A DNA stretch of 46,328 nucleotides, taken from positions 1 through 46,328 of IMG/VR virus record IMGVR_UViG_3300009425_000025, one strand, 5' to 3'. The number at the start of each line of letters is the position of its first letter. Within the stretch, counting starts at the first letter, position 1. Below the pieces are notes generated by a model. The model was not told where the DNA came from and ran no database searches. It saw nothing but the letters and a program-made list of their open reading frames with translations. The position numbers and the translations under genes are program-made. Positions 7,181 through 19,004 of this stretch are shown here, piece after piece. The DNA comes from a virus.

Positions 7181-7405
7181 TTGAAAGTAGCAGAAAAGAG
7201 CAATATTCAATATATAGAACGTATGTTAAGCGTGGACGAGGTTGCAGAAAACCTTAATTGTAGCGTATATACCGTTTATCGAAGACTAAAAAGCGGTGAA
7301 CTAGGTGGATTTAGAGATGGTGGAACTTGGAAAATCCCAACAAGCGATTATACTAGGTATGTAAGCAATAAGAAAGCGTATCAAGGTACTTATCCTTTAT
7401 TGTGA
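7181..7405 (+). CDS. Excisionase/MerR-type helix-turn-helix protein
   Basis: A 74-residue DNA-binding protein starting with TTG 7181, chosen because GGGAG precedes it; the internal ATG at 7223 has no such site. Residues about 15-60 show the winged-helix excisionase pattern: MLSVDEVAENLNCSVYTVYR, then LKSGELGGFRDGGTWKIP and a downstream DYTRYV. With no integrase in the window, a transcriptional or replication-control role is more likely than excision. The 3' end lies inside a 17-bp perfect inverted repeat that covers the next ribosome binding site. Confidence 0.8.
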   Translation: MKVAEKSNIQYIERMLSVDEVAENLNCSVYTVYRRLKSGELGGFRDGGTWKIPTSDYTRYVSNKKAYQGTYPLL

Positions 7406-7432
7406 ACGCTAGTGAACAATAAAGGATAAGTA
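7387..7432 (+). promoter_or_regulatory. 17-bp perfect hairpin hiding the ribosome binding site of the next gene
   Basis: TACTTATCCTTTATTGT (7387-7403) is exactly complementary to ACAATAAAGGATAAGTA (7416-7432), with a 12-base loop. The left arm is the last coding sequence of the HTH gene and the right arm contains AAAGGA (7421-7426), the only good ribosome binding site for ATG 7436. Ribosomes finishing the HTH gene would melt the stem, so the arrangement predicts coupled or regulated translation. There is no U-run, which argues against an intrinsic terminator. Confidence 0.8.
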
Positions 7433-9775: not shown

Positions 9776-10096
9776 ATGACTCATCCATCAAAAAGGAAAG
9801 GTAATCGTGTTGAGAATCTAGTAAAGGATATCTTTATAGGTCACGGATTTAAGTCAATCCGTGCCTATGCTAGCAACGGTTTAGCTCTGGGGGAACACGA
9901 GGAGTGCGACCTAACTGCTGAAATGTTTGGTCACAAATGGCGATTTCAAATAAAAGCTAGGAAGGTAATAGCCAAGTGGATTAAACCTAATATGGAAAAC
10001 GTGGATGCTCAAATTATCAAGCAAGATAGGGAAGAGCCATTGATAGTAATGCCATTAAGCAGATTTATAGAGGAGTTGAGAAATGCCCGACAATAA
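9776..10096 (+). CDS. Hjc-like Holliday junction resolvase (PD-(D/E)XK nuclease)
   Basis: A 106-residue protein. Near the N-terminus KRKGNRVENLVKDIF carries the conserved Glu13 helix of the archaeal Hjc family; ECDLTAEMFGHKWRFQIKAR supplies Asp45 and the Gln58-x-Lys60 pair of the PD-(D/E)XK core. Length and motif order match Hjc-like phage resolvases, which resolve branched DNA before packaging. It starts one base after the preceding stop, without a clear ribosome binding site, so is probably translationally coupled. Confidence 0.75.
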   Translation: MTHPSKRKGNRVENLVKDIFIGHGFKSIRAYASNGLALGEHEECDLTAEMFGHKWRFQIKARKVIAKWIKPNMENVDAQIIKQDREEPLIVMPLSRFIEELRNARQ

Positions 10097-10952
10097 GCCC
10101 CCGGCTTTTATGTTTTATGCCGGAGATTTCTTATCGAGCATAGATGTTGCTTTTATGGATATGGAGTTGAGAGGTGTTTACATAACTCTGTTAGCATACT
10201 CTTGGCTAGAGAACGGGATACCAAATGAAGACAGGAAATTAAAAGTTATCTTACAATGTAGTGACGAGGACACTTACTCAAGGTATAAATCTGAGGTTAT
10301 AGATGCTTGTTTTAAGCTAGAAAAAAATACTTGGAGACAACCAAGACAGGAAAGAGAAAGAGCCAAGCAACAAGAAAGAAAGGATGCTCACATTAAAGCC
10401 GGAAAAATGAGTCAAGATTTAAGGAGAGCAAGAGAAAATAAAAGGGGAAAAGGAGCATTATTGCGTGTGAGTAAAGGGAGCAACGCTCTAGAGTTGGAAA
10501 GAGAAGTAGAATTTGAAACTGAATTTTGGAAAGCGTATCCTAGAAAAACAGGAAAGAAGAAAACAAAAGCACTATATAATAAAATAAGAAAAAGCACAAG
10601 CAAAGAAGACGTAATAAATGGATTAAAAAACCATATAAAAGGTTGTTGGAGTGGGAAAGAAATTGAATTTATACCATATCCAATGACTTGGCTAAATGGG
10701 GAATGTTGGAATGATGATGCTAGCAATATATCTGGTGAGGTCACAAAGGTGATTAAGAGAACTTTTGTGAAGGTTTGCCCCGTCTGTGGAGCAACTAAGG
10801 ATGGATGCGACAAGAACTCTGTCGATGTTTGCCGTAGGCACAAACCTAGCTTTGATATGTTTTCAGAGAATAAAGTGCTAATGGACGATGATTTACTAAT
10901 GATTAATGGCATACGTTTAGATTTAGGTTTGGAATTAGTAGGAGAAAAGTAA
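10083..10952 (+). CDS. DUF1376/O-type replication initiator-like protein
   Basis: A 289-residue protein with a GAGGAG site. Residues about 5-60 (PAFMFYAGDFLSSIDVAFMD, ELRGVYITLLAYSW) match the DUF1376 N-terminal winged helix. Residues about 150-225 (FWKAYPRKTGKKKTKALYNK, then FIPYPMTWLNGECW) match the C-terminal block typical of phage O-like initiators. A zinc site CPVCGATKDGC...CRRH follows near 238-260. This protein probably marks the origin and recruits the host helicase, which fits the absence of phage polymerase and helicase genes. The origin itself is not identified; the structured region just downstream is one candidate. Confidence 0.75.
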   Translation: MPDNKPPAFMFYAGDFLSSIDVAFMDMELRGVYITLLAYSWLENGIPNEDRKLKVILQCSDEDTYSRYKSEVIDACFKLEKNTWRQPRQERERAKQQERKDAHIKAGKMSQDLRRARENKRGKGALLRVSKGSNALELEREVEFETEFWKAYPRKTGKKKTKALYNKIRKSTSKEDVINGLKNHIKGCWSGKEIEFIPYPMTWLNGECWNDDASNISGEVTKVIKRTFVKVCPVCGATKDGCDKNSVDVCRRHKPSFDMFSENKVLMDDDLLMINGIRLDLGLELVGEK

Positions 10953-11000
10953 TAAATTTAACAGAACACCCTTAGTATAAATTGGGGTGACAAATGAACA

Positions 11001-11036
11001 GAGAGCTAGTTTGGTTTGGCTATTAGTCTAGTTCTC
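11001..11036 (+). promoter_or_regulatory. Leader hairpin over an 11-codon mini-ORF
   Basis: GAGAGCTAG (11001-11009) pairs with CTAGTTCTC (11028-11036), nine pairs with one G-U. The same bases form most of a mini-ORF at 10994-11026, MNRELVWFGY, which has GGGGTG just upstream. It may be a leader peptide or coincidence. The hairpin directly precedes the larger structured element at 11041. The rest of 10953-11040 contains a short CACCC/GGGTG pair (10967-10989) and nothing else recognised. Confidence 0.45.
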
Positions 11037-11040
11037 AAAA

Positions 11041-11123
11041 ATAAGCGCAAAAGAGAGAAATCTCGATGGTGGATTATTTGGTTATTCTCCAAATTACCCA
11101 TTTTTATTCACCATCACGCTTAT
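11041..11123 (+). ncRNA. Three-way-junction RNA in the 5' leader of the 11145 gene
   Basis: ATAAGCG (11041-11047) pairs perfectly with CGCTTAT (11117-11123) as a closing helix. Inside are a hairpin GAGA-GAAA-TCTC (11053-11064) with a GNRA tetraloop, and a long arm GATGGTGGAT/ATTCACCATC (11065-11074 with 11106-11115, one G-U) capped by ATTTGG-TTATTCT-CCAAAT (11076-11094). The ribosome binding site GGAGAG for the next gene starts about 10 bases later. Nested complementary helices of this extent in 83 bases are unlikely by chance. It could be a cis-acting regulator or a processed small RNA; it is not a tRNA. Confidence 0.6.
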
Positions 11124-11144
11124 AACCTATAGACGGAGAGAAAT

Positions 11145-11612
11145 ATGGCAACAAAAAAAGAAGTAACCGCCCTGAAAGAGAAATATTATGAGGGGAAGAA
11201 GGAAGTAAATCGCCTGAATGAGCAGTTAAATCATCTTGGTGGTCATTTAAAAAATGTAATTTTTCATATAGATGAAATATACGCTAAATTACTCGTTGAA
11301 TCTGACGATGCAAAGAGGAACAGGAATTATAGTAAAAAAGACCTTATTCGCAAGATTAAAGGCATTGTAGACTATTCTATTAGATGGATTGGTGTACCAA
11401 AGAAACAAGTCTATCAATGGAACCCATTGGATTTATATAAAAACTATGATTGGTGGGAAGAGAAAAAAGAAGACAGATATTTCGTAGGAAAAGAAATACT
11501 AGATTCAATATACCCAAATGAAAAAGAACTAAAAGAAATTTTAGACGGAAGCGGCATTAGTGAGGACGAGCTAAAGACACCGGACTTGGCAGATGCTAGC
11601 ACGAAAAAATGA
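11145..11612 (+). CDS. Coiled-coil protein of unknown function
   Basis: A 155-residue soluble protein, last gene of the plus-strand left arm, with GGAGAG upstream. The first 45 residues (KKEVTALKEKYYEGKKEVNR and onward) form a helix or coiled coil; the middle holds a tryptophan- and tyrosine-rich segment (QWNPLDLYKNYDWWEEKKED). No family recognised. It is flanked on both sides by structured noncoding elements, so it may be the product they regulate. Confidence 0.65.
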   Translation: MATKKEVTALKEKYYEGKKEVNRLNEQLNHLGGHLKNVIFHIDEIYAKLLVESDDAKRNRNYSKKDLIRKIKGIVDYSIRWIGVPKKQVYQWNPLDLYKNYDWWEEKKEDRYFVGKEILDSIYPNEKELKEILDGSGISEDELKTPDLADASTKK

Positions 11613-11625
11613 AATCACATAGCTC

Positions 11626-11713
11626 AAGGTGAAGTAGCCGAAACAAATCGCCCTTCGCATTTCAACTCCGCATTAATCAATAGGGGGGCTTGATAAGTAG
11701 GTTATTTCACCTT
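11626..11713 (+). ncRNA. Structured RNA closed by a 14-bp helix
   Basis: AAGGTGAAGTAGCC (11626-11639) pairs with GGTTATTTCACCTT (11700-11713) through 14 consecutive pairs, two of them G-U. Inside, GAAA/TTTC (11640-11643 with 11660-11663) and ATCAA/TTGAT (11676-11680 with 11690-11694) give two further arms, again a three-way junction. A GGGGGGC loop could also pair with the CGCCC at 11650-11654. It begins 13 bases after the stop of the previous gene. No T-loop or anticodon arm is present, so it is not a tRNA. Confidence 0.55.
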
Positions 11714-11723
11714 AATATTTAGA

Positions 11724-11808
11724 TAGACACTAGGGAATATATATTGTAAAGTCGTTTCGTCGGCTCACAACTACCTCGGTTTACTCGCCAATTATTTCTT
11801 AGTGTCTA
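11724..11808 (+). ncRNA. Structured RNA closed by a 16-bp helix
   Basis: TAGACACTAGGGAATA (11724-11739) pairs with TATTTCTTAGTGTCTA (11793-11808) over 16 pairs with two G-U. An inner GTAAA/TTTAC helix (11746-11750 with 11780-11784) is separated by an internal loop. Its length (85 bases) and layout are close to those of the two preceding elements although the primary sequence differs. Conserved pairing with G-U replacements suggests selection on structure, on either strand. Confidence 0.5.
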
Positions 11809-11831
11809 CATCCTATCCCAATAGGCAAAAA

Positions 11832-11858
11832 AAAGGGGGAGCATTTTGCTCCCCCTTT
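11832..11858. terminator. Bidirectional intrinsic terminator between convergent operons
   Basis: AAAGGGGGAGCA (11832-11843) pairs perfectly with TGCTCCCCCTTT (11847-11858) around a three-base loop. Eight A residues (11827-11834) give the U-tract for minus-strand transcripts; TTT follows on the plus strand. It lies between the last plus-strand gene and the end of the minus-strand operon. Confidence 0.9.
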
Positions 11859-11880
11859 CTCCGTTATCTAGGTAGTCAGA

Positions 11881-12467: not shown

Positions 12468-12529
12468 ACAGGGAGAGAGGTCTGACCTTTTTCACAAGAC
12501 TAATGCACATATCTTGCTACTCTCCCTGT
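12468..12529 (-). promoter_or_regulatory. 5' leader inverted repeat with internal hairpins
   Basis: ACAGGGAGAG (12468-12477) pairs with CTCTCCCTGT (12520-12529), 10 perfect pairs. Inside, AGGT-CTG-ACCT (12478-12488) and AAGA/TCTT arms can form, again a three-way-junction shape. It occupies nearly all of the spacer in front of the gene starting at 12450. Confidence 0.5.
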
Positions 12530-13857: not shown

Positions 13858-13887
13858 TTCGTCGGCTCCCTTTTTAATATTGTTTTC

Positions 13888-13924
13888 TTTATTTTACCTT
13901 TCACTTTGTTCAAGGTAAAATAAA
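13888..13924. promoter_or_regulatory. 13-bp perfect hairpin in an AT-rich leader
   Basis: TTTATTTTACCTT (13888-13900) is complementary to AAGGTAAAATAAA (13912-13924), with an 11-base loop. It lies about 30 bases upstream of the start at 13857 on the minus strand. There is no U-run after it on that strand. It may stabilise the mRNA end or be processed. Confidence 0.6.
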
Positions 13925-14764: not shown

Positions 14765-15655
14765 TTATTTGTAATGACCCTGTGAGTATTCCATTGTCTC
14801 TGCTAGCTTTCGTATTTCCCTGTCCAAAGTATCTACGGTAGCATCGACACTCTTGGTGTCTTTTTGTTCAACGACATAGAACACATTTGCTCTTTCTTTA
14901 GCATCTTCAGACATTTCTTTCTGATATCCCATACCGTGGTCAAATCCGAAGACACCTCTCTTGATTTGGAACAATAGGTCTCGAAGTATTCCGTTGGTTG
15001 CTATCGACATAACCCTCTGCAAATCCAACACTTCGTGACTTCTCTTTACCGGGAAGAGGACAACAAACTCCCTTACTCCGGGGAGAGAACCTTCATACTG
15101 ACAACAATAAGTAGCGTGAATCTCGACGGCATTCCCCATCCTTGTAAGAATGTCTGCTAGCACCGAAGCCGTAGCCCCTAGTCTTGCAAATTCCATCTCA
15201 TCGTTGAAGTGAGCAAGGGAGAAATTGATACCTATTCTCACATTTCTCCTCTTGTTGTCTCTCACCATTTTGTCCCAATAGTCGTCCCTATTGACCATAA
15301 CCTTGTCGATGTTAAGTTCATCTCCATCGTCACTACATCTCCTAACTCTCTTCGATGATAGTCCTTGCCCTAAGTAAGAAGTAATGTCGAGTTGTTGTTC
15401 TACTTCTTCTCGATATTTTTCAAAGAAGTCCCTTACTTTCTTACTGCTCTTGCCGATAGTAAGATTCTCGACAAGTTGCTCCCTTGTCTTAACCGACCCA
15501 TAAGTCCAATCCTTGTCGGTTATTTTGAAGACATCGTTAGTCAGACAAGCCTCGATATAGTCTTCTGCTGAATCAAATTCAAGACAGACGATTTCCTTCT
15601 CGGCACTATAGTCATATGATACATCGTTCTTTTCTGATAGAATATAATCAGACAT
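14765..15655 (-). CDS. DUF7192-like partner of MoxR-type ATPase
   Basis: A 296-residue protein with GAGGAG upstream. The section NVRIGINFSLAHFNDEMEFA, RLGATASVLADILTRMGNAV and EIHATYCC, then LFPVKRSHEVLDLQRVMSIA and RDLLFQIKRGVFGF, follows the plan I recall for DUF7192: an N-terminal strand, a helix with R/L-G-A, a G-x-V-E strand, then a V-K-x-x-x-x-L-D-L motif and a helical end. In other phages that family sits beside a MoxR ATPase and resembles the von Willebrand A partners of MoxR, although no intact metal-binding DxSxS motif is seen. The gene follows the ATPase by 14 bases, so the two proteins probably act together. Confidence 0.65.
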   Translation of the reverse strand: MSDYILSEKNDVSYDYSAEKEIVCLEFDSAEDYIEACLTNDVFKITDKDWTYGSVKTREQLVENLTIGKSSKKVRDFFEKYREEVEQQLDITSYLGQGLSSKRVRRCSDDGDELNIDKVMVNRDDYWDKMVRDNKRRNVRIGINFSLAHFNDEMEFARLGATASVLADILTRMGNAVEIHATYCCQYEGSLPGVREFVVLFPVKRSHEVLDLQRVMSIATNGILRDLLFQIKRGVFGFDHGMGYQKEMSEDAKERANVFYVVEQKDTKSVDATVDTLDREIRKLAETMEYSQGHYK

Positions 15656-15669
15656 ATTTTACTCCTCGA

Positions 15670-16989
15670 TTAAAGTGTTATTGGTTGATTGACATTGACA
15701 CCATCTAAGCTAGATACTCTCGGTTCTGCTCTCTTGTAGTTGGTGGGAAACTTCTCCATCATCTCTTCAAGATTGATTTTCGATTTCTCTTCGTCTGTCC
15801 ATTGAGCCGTCAAGTCAGCTAATGCGTAGAAGATGCTAGCTTTTGATAAGCCGCCCTCTATCTTCTTGCCCTTTCCTAGTGTCATCGGAGTTACCGATTT
15901 TTCTGCCACTACACCATTGACGGCTTGGTGAATCATTTTTGCCGAAGTGGAAAAAGCACGGGTAGAGATGTTGTATCTTAGCTTTTGGTCTCTAATCCGA
16001 GTCCTTAGTTCGAAGAGAGCATCTGCTAGCTCTTTATATTCCCCGACTATAGCTTTCTCGATTTCATTGTCGTAATCTATCGATATTACTGCTCCGGTGA
16101 ATCTATCAAGAGTTGCCATATCTTGTTGGTTCCTTCCAACGTATTGGTGACTATTTCCATACCCTGTGCTATTATCGATGGCAATAAACGAGAAGTCATC
16201 GTGACGAAATCGATACGGATTCTCTGGGTCATTTGGAGTGAACATCAATCCTTGACCATCTAGCATAGAGTTATGAATGAGAGACATATTGGGGTCAAAT
16301 CCATTGAACTCGTCGGCTACAATAAAGCCACCTTCCGAGAATGGTTTGACATATTGACCCTCAATATACCGACCATCAAATGTCGATTTCCCTAATAGTT
16401 GAGCCTCACTAACTCCGGCAGTACCGACGGCATAAGTATATTTAAACTTATCATCTTCGTCCCAATCTTTAGCCTTGGCAATTACCTTAAATAGCATCTC
16501 GGCTATTGTCGATTTCCCTGTTCCTCTTTCACCGACCATAAAAAGCTTGCCGTGAGTTATCAGTTTATCGAGACAATCTTGGTATTGAAAGTGGATTAAA
16601 TCTCCATCGACTTGGTCAAAAATTACCTTATCCTTGACGGTGATTTGGACAGGTCTCGTTACTTCCTCGACTCTCTCCTCAATCATCTCCTCGATTTTCT
16701 TCCCATACTTGTCCTCCATCTTCTCGAGAACCTTTTCCGACGAGTAGTCTCCAATCACTTTCTCCATATCCGACAGACTTTTCTGCCCTGTAGTACCGTT
16801 GTTGTCCGACGATGAACTATTCCCACTACTTTGGTCGGAAGTATCTTTACCGTCGTTACTTGGTGGATTCCAACTTCCGTCTAGAAAGCCGTCTAATTCG
16901 TGTCTTCTAGCAAAAGCCGTCCAACTTGAACTGACACCGTCAGCTTCACATTTTCTTCTAGCGGATTTTCTCATTTCTGAAACATTCAT
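15670..16989 (-). CDS. MoxR/CbbQ-type AAA+ ATPase
   Basis: I start at ATG 16989 (MNVSEMRKSARRK), which has AAGGAG upstream; a longer frame to 17094 would run through a hairpin. In the 439-residue product, residues 41-75 are Ser/Asn/Gly-rich linker. The AAA+ core then shows Walker A GERGTGKST (153-161), Walker B IVADE (223-227), a sensor Asn273 (IDNST), the MoxR-typical LDRF (294-297), and a downstream STRAF motif. Known family: MoxR/CbbQ ATPases remodel partner proteins together with a VWA-type protein, often for metal loading or complex assembly. The substrate here is unknown. The linked DUF7192-like gene is the presumed adaptor. A long hairpin lies in its leader. Confidence 0.88.
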   Translation of the reverse strand: MNVSEMRKSARRKCEADGVSSSWTAFARRHELDGFLDGSWNPPSNDGKDTSDQSSGNSSSSDNNGTTGQKSLSDMEKVIGDYSSEKVLEKMEDKYGKKIEEMIEERVEEVTRPVQITVKDKVIFDQVDGDLIHFQYQDCLDKLITHGKLFMVGERGTGKSTIAEMLFKVIAKAKDWDEDDKFKYTYAVGTAGVSEAQLLGKSTFDGRYIEGQYVKPFSEGGFIVADEFNGFDPNMSLIHNSMLDGQGLMFTPNDPENPYRFRHDDFSFIAIDNSTGYGNSHQYVGRNQQDMATLDRFTGAVISIDYDNEIEKAIVGEYKELADALFELRTRIRDQKLRYNISTRAFSTSAKMIHQAVNGVVAEKSVTPMTLGKGKKIEGGLSKASIFYALADLTAQWTDEEKSKINLEEMMEKFPTNYKRAEPRVSSLDGVNVNQPITL

Positions 16990-17054
16990 TTTGTTCTCCT
17001 TGCCTCTCTCGGCAGTTTTGGTTTTTGGCTCAAATTCCGAGCCGTTAGTATTTC

Positions 17055-17099
17055 TATAAATGATAGCATCTTCAGTTCCTTCAGATGCTATCATTTATA
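17055..17099. promoter_or_regulatory. 17-bp perfect inverted repeat upstream of the ATPase gene
   Basis: TATAAATGATAGCATCT (17055-17071) and AGATGCTATCATTTATA (17083-17099) are exact reverse complements, with an 11-base loop. It lies about 65 bases upstream of the ATPase start, in its mRNA leader on the minus strand. No U-run follows, so a processing, stabilising or protein-binding role is more likely than termination. Confidence 0.75.
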
Positions 17100-17108
17100 A
17101 ATACAAAG

Positions 17109-18497: not shown

Positions 18498-18511
18498 TTT
18501 ACTCTCTCTTT

Positions 18512-18529
18512 ACCGTCACTAAAGACGGT
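18512..18529. promoter_or_regulatory. Small leader hairpin before the 18497 gene
   Basis: ACCGTC-ACTAAA-GACGGT is a perfect six-pair stem. On the minus strand it ends just before the AGAGAGAG ribosome binding site. On the plus strand it is followed by GGTTTTT. Confidence 0.55.
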
Positions 18530-18543
18530 GGTTTTTCGTTAGT

Positions 18544-18573
18544 TGGTCTGTCTTCTTCAGGACGAGTAGACCA
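18544..18573. promoter_or_regulatory. Hairpin in the spacer 18498-18637
   Basis: TGGTCT (18544-18549) and AGACCA (18568-18573) pair, with an inner GTC/GAC pair. It is the middle of three hairpins filling this 140-base spacer. Confidence 0.45.
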
Positions 18574-18594
18574 GTTCTCGTCGATACTGCTCTG

Positions 18595-18620
18595 GCGATG
18601 CTAGAACAATCTAGCACCGC
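18595..18620. promoter_or_regulatory. Hairpin with TGCTAGA/TCTAGCA stem
   Basis: GCG-a-TGCTAGA (18595-18605) pairs with TCTAGCA-c-CGC (18610-18620) around an ACAA loop. It follows the end of the 18638 gene on the minus strand and resembles the hairpin at 18035-18062. A third related spacer copy with GCGATGCTA and GCTAGAACACCGC lies at 18952-18991. Confidence 0.7.
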
Positions 18621-18847: not shown

Positions 18848-18946
18848 TTTGTACTCTCTCTCTTTTTGTTGTTTTGTCGTCGATAAAACCTAGTGTTCTA
18901 TCTTCGTTTTCTTATTCTAATTCTTGTTCTCTTTCTCTTTCCATAT

Positions 18947-18997
18947 CACTAGCGATGCTATAGCGACGTTATAGATATGCTAGAACACCGCTTAGTG
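18947..18997. promoter_or_regulatory. Bulged inverted repeat in the spacer 18848-19029
   Basis: CACTAGCG (18947-18954) pairs with CGCtTAGTG (18989-18997, one bulged T). Inside, CTATA and TATAG (around 18958-18974) form another hairpin. A tiny minus-strand ORF (MEREREQELE) lies beside it and is not annotated. The rest of this 180-base spacer shows only pyrimidine-rich DNA. Confidence 0.45.
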
Positions 18998-19004
18998 CTA
19001 TGGT

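Follow-up and report, generated by a model that had tools for sequence, protein, structure and literature searches.

The Locus and Its Genes

In a 46-kb virus record, analysed here as a whole and called the window, a set of structured elements lies at the 3′ end of an operon read along the + strand, past a gene of the replication-initiation type and around a second gene, which we term gene X. The features are listed below; z-scores compare the folding energy of each element, as RNA, with that of 200 dinucleotide-preserving shuffles.

10083–10952, + strand: replication-initiation-type gene, upstream of the elements, matching PHROG replication initiation and primosomal families (E 1.8e-21 and 2.8e-19)
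10987–10996, + strand: GTGACAAATG, directly 5′ of the leader hairpin, recognised by alignment, with TGACAAATG identical in the related loci L005 and L007
11001–11036, + strand: leader hairpin A, with a 9-bp stem and a loop containing GGTTTGGC (11013–11020); z -3.54; stem different, yet kept, in L005, L007, and other loci
11041–11123, + strand: element 1, a three-way junction; z -5.54; 18 of 18 pairs kept in three phages
11135–11140, + strand: GGAGAG, which is probably the Shine-Dalgarno sequence of gene X; for the most part unpaired in the predicted ensemble
11145–11612, + strand: gene X, 155 aa, with an HLGGHLKN motif, predicted helical; 36 homologous loci
11626–11713, + strand: element 2, with a 14-bp closing helix, a long arm, and a 26-nt loop; z -4.41; no divergent homologue found
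11724–11808, + strand: element 3, with a 16-bp closing helix, a three-way junction by minimum free energy (MFE); z -4.57; positional counterpart in L007
11832–11858, - strand: operon-end hairpin, recognised by sequence and fold, with a U tract only on the - strand

The initial annotation had seen at 11145–11612 a single gene of unassigned family beside a replication initiator, and this holds: the upstream gene has the PHROG matches given above, and no family was found for gene X. A comparison of gene X with Pfam and the PDB gave no significant match, and its AlphaFold2 model, of modest confidence, has no structural neighbours and no recognisable RNA-binding fold.

Relatives were collected in two ways. 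A profile search of IMG/VR with gene X led to the 36 loci, near-identical copies of the window included; a second set, with the nuclease-like gene at 9776–10096 as the query, comprised 80 loci among the matches listed, of 123 related places. A nucleotide search with the region against 50,697 phage records produced chance-level matches only and no close relative of the window, and the homologue of gene X from locus L057, searched as protein, was not found in these 50,697 phage records. Since gene X and the pattern of element C (see below) are also missing from the genomes of 84,980 species (one genome per species), no prophage or host was identified.

Folding Energies and Strand Preference

The three elements of 83–88 bases closed by long helices, and the leader hairpin at 11001–11036, had been proposed from the letters alone. 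Their coordinates and helices proved right, and all four structures fold far better than their dinucleotide-shuffled controls: element 1 has an MFE of -24.7 against a shuffled mean of -11.3, and the observed energy was matched by 0 of 200 shuffles for each large element and by 1 of 200 for the leader hairpin. In a scan of the whole window, 11041 and 11721 rank with the most structured positions, and 11621–11710 stands out too (z -3.56). However, the total count of long helices in the window is not above that in shuffles, so that only the individual z-scores and the comparative evidence carry weight.

On the - strand, elements 1, 2, and 3 fold less well (z -3.88, -1.30, and -3.14) than on the + strand, which is the operon sense. 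Such a difference would be expected of a + strand RNA in which G-U pairs are of importance. It also bears on the proposal that the elements form part of a replication origin, or some other cruciform acting at the level of DNA, as their position adjoining the replication-initiation-type gene might suggest. Such a reading appears exceedingly improbable: the G-U pairs are on the mRNA strand and the other strand folds worse, the elements track gene ends and recur at gene boundaries in the relatives, the strand specificity is found again in L007 (see below), and the region has no iterons and only one short direct repeat.

Element 1

Element 1 is built from a 7-bp helix, P1 (11041–11047/11117–11123), a 4-bp arm capped by GAAA, P2 (GAGA-GAAA-TCTC, 11053–11064), and a 10-bp arm, P3 (11065–11074/11106–11115), which carries the tip TTTGG-TTATTCT-CCAAA (11077–11093). 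Besides near-identical copies, two independent versions were found, one in L005/L006, where gene X is 48% identical, and one in L007, where it is 44% identical. The window, L005/L006, and L007 share the same layout: the replication gene, a hairpin with a TTGGC-containing loop, a three-way junction, and gene X.

The helices of the window had been fixed by folding before the comparison with the relatives was made. In a hand-made structural alignment of three distinct sequences only, all 18 pairs counted across the three helices are standard in 3 of 3 phages, and 10 of them have changed on both sides. P1, for example, reads ATAAGCG/CGCTTAT, TTCGGCA/TGCCGAA, or TTAGGCA/TGCCTAA, and P3 reads GATGGTG/CACCATC as against AGGCTAG/CTAGCCT, while the GNRA arm AGAGAGAAATCT is invariant and the tip contains CTCC in all versions. 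Judged from these alignments, element 1 is confirmed as an RNA structure maintained by compensatory change. Neither energies like those of shuffles nor helices without compensatory changes were found for element 1 or for the leader hairpin.

The fold of element 1 is not predicted to sequester the Shine-Dalgarno sequence of gene X, which is largely open in the ensemble. The suggestion of a riboswitch-like leader finds no support here: the predicted fold leaves this site largely open, no metabolic gene is associated with the region, and there is no match in Rfam.

In L034, an element of 87 nt with a 10-bp closing helix (L034:3873–3959; z -4.25) lies directly upstream of gene X. It has no sequence similarity to element 1, of which it is a positional analogue in a distant relative.

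Leader Hairpin A and Its Closing Helix

Hairpin A of the window, with its motif GGTTTGGC, is the counterpart of a GGTTGGC hairpin (loop GGUUGGC) of the related phages. At least 20 related loci have this hairpin just past the replication gene; the motif usually lies in its loop, and the stem sequence varies from phage to phage. In 17 of the 18 loci examined, the hairpin is enclosed by a further helix of 9–18 bp that runs from the end of the replication gene to the first codons of the next gene. No more than 3 of 100 shuffles reach the observed score of this closing helix in 16 of 17 loci (the exception being L036), and no more than 3 of 60 do so in 27 of the 29 distinct sequences of a larger set, counts that are not independent because many of the loci are related. 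The helix itself is made of different sequences: GGGGC/GCCCC, GGGAGCGCG/CGCGCTCCC, GGGGTATA/TATACCCC, GGAGTATAG/CTATACTCC, and GGGACTCG/CGAGTCCC. On inspection, one strand of the helix coincides with or lies close to the stop codon, and the other strand usually lies within about 10 nt of the next start codon.

Because both strands of the closing helix are coding, amino acids on the two sides have changed together: as read from the sequences, a replication protein ending in GA-stop goes with YAP in the next protein, and one ending in GV-stop goes with YTP. Without selection on the RNA, such paired codon changes would be difficult to account for. The comparison shows hairpin A, as a predicted structure, to be maintained by compensatory change in the related phages. 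L087, which has no recognisable gene X, has this arrangement too, its helix being 14 bp long (z -4.8); there, a second structured element lies 3′ of hairpin A (L087:2654–2740), with a 12-bp closing helix, GGGGGUCAUAUG/CAUGUGGCCCCC, and a z-score of -4.2.

Translational coupling calls for a conserved helix that links the upstream gene's end to the downstream start, and such a helix is thus present around hairpin A in the relatives. It was not found in the window, where there is only the 9-bp stem, or in L005 and L007 (hairpin stems of 9–13 bp for the three). In the window, GTGACAAATG opens possible short leader reading frames (10987–11030) that run into hairpin A; L005 and L007 preserve neither their sequence nor their length.

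Elements 2 and 3 and the End of the Operon

The first two elements had both been read as three-way junctions. This is right for element 1; element 2 is, by MFE, one long arm with internal loops. It contains CTCCGCAT (11666–11673), the sole stretch that it shares with element C, and no divergent homologue of it was found among the related loci. Element 3 contains CTCACAACTACC (11764–11775). In L007, the stretch from gene X to the operon end contains a structure with a 17-bp closing helix of unrelated sequence, which folds with a z-score of -3.1 on the mRNA strand as against +0.14 on the other strand, and which has ACAACTACC in common with element 3; it is plausibly, from position and sequence, the counterpart of this element. 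The structure of elements 2 and 3 is thus shown by energy and, by evolution, hardly (element 3) or not at all (element 2). As for the initial claim that structure is maintained, compensatory changes bear it out for element 1 and the leader hairpin, and element 3 has the one plausible counterpart only. Elements 2 and 3 were also considered as members of the element C family and rejected, the covariance model R1 yielding only non-significant matches to this pair, one of 6.3 bits (E 0.38 in 1 kb) and one of 3.4 bits (E 1.6).

A terminator had been placed at 11832. The hairpin is there, and on the + strand its stem is followed by UUUCUCC. Since a long U tract is only read on the - strand, the hairpin would primarily be the terminator of the convergent operon, or else a weak one for the + operon. 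Because this convergent terminator separates the convergent operon from the elements, the idea that these are antisense RNAs to the convergent transcripts is disfavoured.

Further Elements in Related Phages

At these same sites, the related phages have further elements, C and D. Element C is characterised by GGCGCGCAUG, the loop ACUCACAACUAC, and the arm UUGCUCCGCAUCAGCAA. A covariance model built from 12 sequences matches 25 loci at E 7e-8 or better, the 12 matching by construction. In the 12 distinct sequences, 92.3% of the cells are paired, and 9 pairs have changed on both sides, as against a shuffled mean of 2.2 and with 0 of 500 shuffles reaching this number; moreover, the unpaired sequence is conserved more than the helices. 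The exact pattern occurs in IMG/VR in 14 contigs only, all of this phage group, and element C, searched as DNA, was not found in the 50,697 phage records.

Element D lies between gene X and the operon-end hairpin and consists, in most phages, of a helix, AACAAC/GUUGUU, and an inner CUCC hairpin. Individual folds give a similar hairpin in most D elements. Single D sequences are no more stable than shuffles (z -0.4 and -1.8), so that it is conservation that argues for this element. RNAalifold found no structure in a MAFFT alignment of D, which was misaligned.

The motif CUCC recurs in the loops of elements 1, C, and D, and it resembles an anti-Shine-Dalgarno sequence. One explanation would be that the elements are trans-acting small RNAs of the phage, cut from the operon mRNA, whose exposed loops (CUCC, ACAACUAC) pair with other messages of the phage or host. 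The high conservation of the unpaired sequence of element C would fit, as would the position of D and of elements 2 and 3 at the 3′ end of the operon, like that of small RNAs derived from 3′-UTRs. We consider this unlikely, however: the closing helix of hairpin A takes in codons of the two adjoining genes and thereby points to a function within the mRNA, candidate internal promoters do not exceed chance, and the pairing in trans that was proposed between the loop of C and D fails in several phages.

Between hairpin A and element C, the related phages have a small Cys-rich gene, probably encoding a zinc-binding protein (L028:3917–4174, L029:5010–5243, and equivalents), which, from its sequence, is a possible RNA-binding regulator. 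Its Cys-rich nature, the conserved loop sequences, and the presence of elements on both sides of gene X, in L034 as in the window, would all suit another explanation, in which the elements are binding sites through which an RNA-binding protein of the phage, either gene X or the small Cys-rich protein, regulates its own operon. This seems quite unlikely, given that gene X has no recognisable RNA-binding fold, that an A-type element and a D-like hairpin occur in L087 with no recognisable gene X, and that the small Cys-rich gene is absent from that place in the window.

Known Classes of RNA

No match to Rfam 15 at the gathering score was found in the window or in 16 related loci. A relaxed search of the window yielded weak matches only, mostly to the operon-end hairpin; a weak tmRNA match on element 1 is taken as chance, and ARAGORN found no tRNA or tmRNA genes. 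A type III toxin-antitoxin RNA was rejected, since the region has no tandem repeats and its one short two-copy repeat is inside gene X. Among the functions suggested at the outset, a regulatory RNA or leader is still the best class.

A Possible Mode of Action

These structures exceed chance in stability, belong to the mRNA strand, and adjoin stop and start codons, and hairpin A and element 1 are maintained. At about even confidence, we favour the reading that a single phage operon mRNA carries them where its cistrons meet, as RNA structures acting in cis. The structures in the gaps would probably control the translation of the neighbouring genes or the lifetime of the messenger, the most likely role being translational coupling together with control at the 3′ end or between cistrons.

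The operon mRNA would comprise, in order, the replication gene, leader hairpin A, element 1, gene X, elements 2 and 3, and the operon end, and we infer that the elements act within it, in cis. In the relatives, hairpin A and its closing helix would keep the start of the next gene shut until the ribosome that finishes the replication gene melts the helix. Element 1 would be the equivalent boundary element ahead of gene X, and elements 2 and 3 (and D in the relatives) would be 3′-UTR structures with a role in stabilising the 3′ end or defining it. Contact sites for a factor of the host or phage, or for tertiary folding, might be provided by the unpaired stretches that are conserved (GGUUGGC, the GNRA arm, ACAACUAC, and CUCC).

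The geometry of stop and start codons is that of the established RNA-unfolding model of translational coupling (PMC12548453). For the window, a coupling role is proposed by analogy, because the long closing helix is absent there and the predicted fold leaves the Shine-Dalgarno sequence of gene X open. Near-invariant loops, moreover, exceed the needs of coupling, which argues against coupling alone. A more speculative idea, which we think improbable, is that this phage lineage expresses its replication operon as a single structured messenger, in which the conserved loop of each dedicated boundary module (GGUUGGC; the GNRA arm; ACAACUAC/CUCCGCAU; CUCC) is read by one factor of the phage or host, in an undescribed post-transcriptional control of the whole operon. 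A simpler explanation would be that the elements are signals for mRNA processing or stability only, such as RNase III sites or protection of the 3′ end, and that neither coupling nor a specific regulator is involved. Long simple hairpins at other boundaries in the window are in line with this, but elements 1 and C are branched and have invariant loops and arms, beyond what processing needs, and we regard it as very unlikely that processing is all there is.

Known Systems and Significance

In the phage MS2 coat-lysis and E. coli rpmI-rplT pairs, which are translationally coupled, an inhibitory structure lies at the downstream start (PMC12548453). Like these, the hairpin A helix of the relatives is near a downstream start and could be opened by a ribosome translating the upstream gene. 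Unlike these, it joins the stop and start regions of two genes of a replication operon, encloses a hairpin whose GGUUGGC loop is conserved, and has several other structured boundaries beside it in the operon. Coupling is here predicted from sequence, and the window is without the long closing helix.

Phage mRNAs also have intercistronic and 3′-UTR structures such as RNase III processing sites. The present elements share with them stable helices between cistrons and differ in being branched and in having invariant loop sequences. The c4-type antisense RNA of phages has exposed loops that could pair with ribosome-binding sites. The elements resemble it as phage RNA with exposed loops able to do so; they differ in having no Rfam match, in their sense orientation within the operon, and in that no immunity or antirepressor module was identified. 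Comparative genomics has supplied candidate structured RNAs curated in Rfam (PMC2864571, PMC8040213), and the elements are likewise intergenic and supported by covariation, but no Rfam family matches them in the window or the 16 loci.

Structured boundary elements and translational coupling are known kinds; what is new is their set in one operon and the coupled codon changes. Several structured RNA elements with no Rfam match, at least three of them backed by compensatory change, are added from one operon of an uncultivated phage group, including a case of the codons of two proteins changing together and keeping an RNA helix. They offer directly testable predictions on the means by which tightly packed phage operons adjust expression gene by gene with no additional promoters.

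Other Features of the Window

Strong hairpins occur at further gene boundaries of the window (7385–7428, 13870–13920, 17050–17100, 18500–18620, 18860–19000, and 12468–12529). That at 7385–7428, of about 19 bp, encloses the stop codon of one gene just ahead of the next start, and an element with ACAGGGAGAG/CTCTCCCTGT on the - strand is also among the structured boundaries.

A collagen-like protein, marked by long G-x-T repeats, is encoded by a reading frame (706–2178, +) that lies in the only G+C-rich part of the window. An AAA ATPase (15670–17094, -) matches a PHROG family labelled “porphyrin biosynthesis” (cobS-like), and the protein adjoining it (14765–15655) has a weak DUF7192 match. The palindrome TGCTAGCA, the commonest 8-mer of the window, is present in 24 copies against 0.64 expected, and GCTAGC is present in 40 copies and is frequent in most related loci (L034 and L036 being exceptions); these palindromes may be a phage-specific DNA motif for packaging, segregation, or modification.
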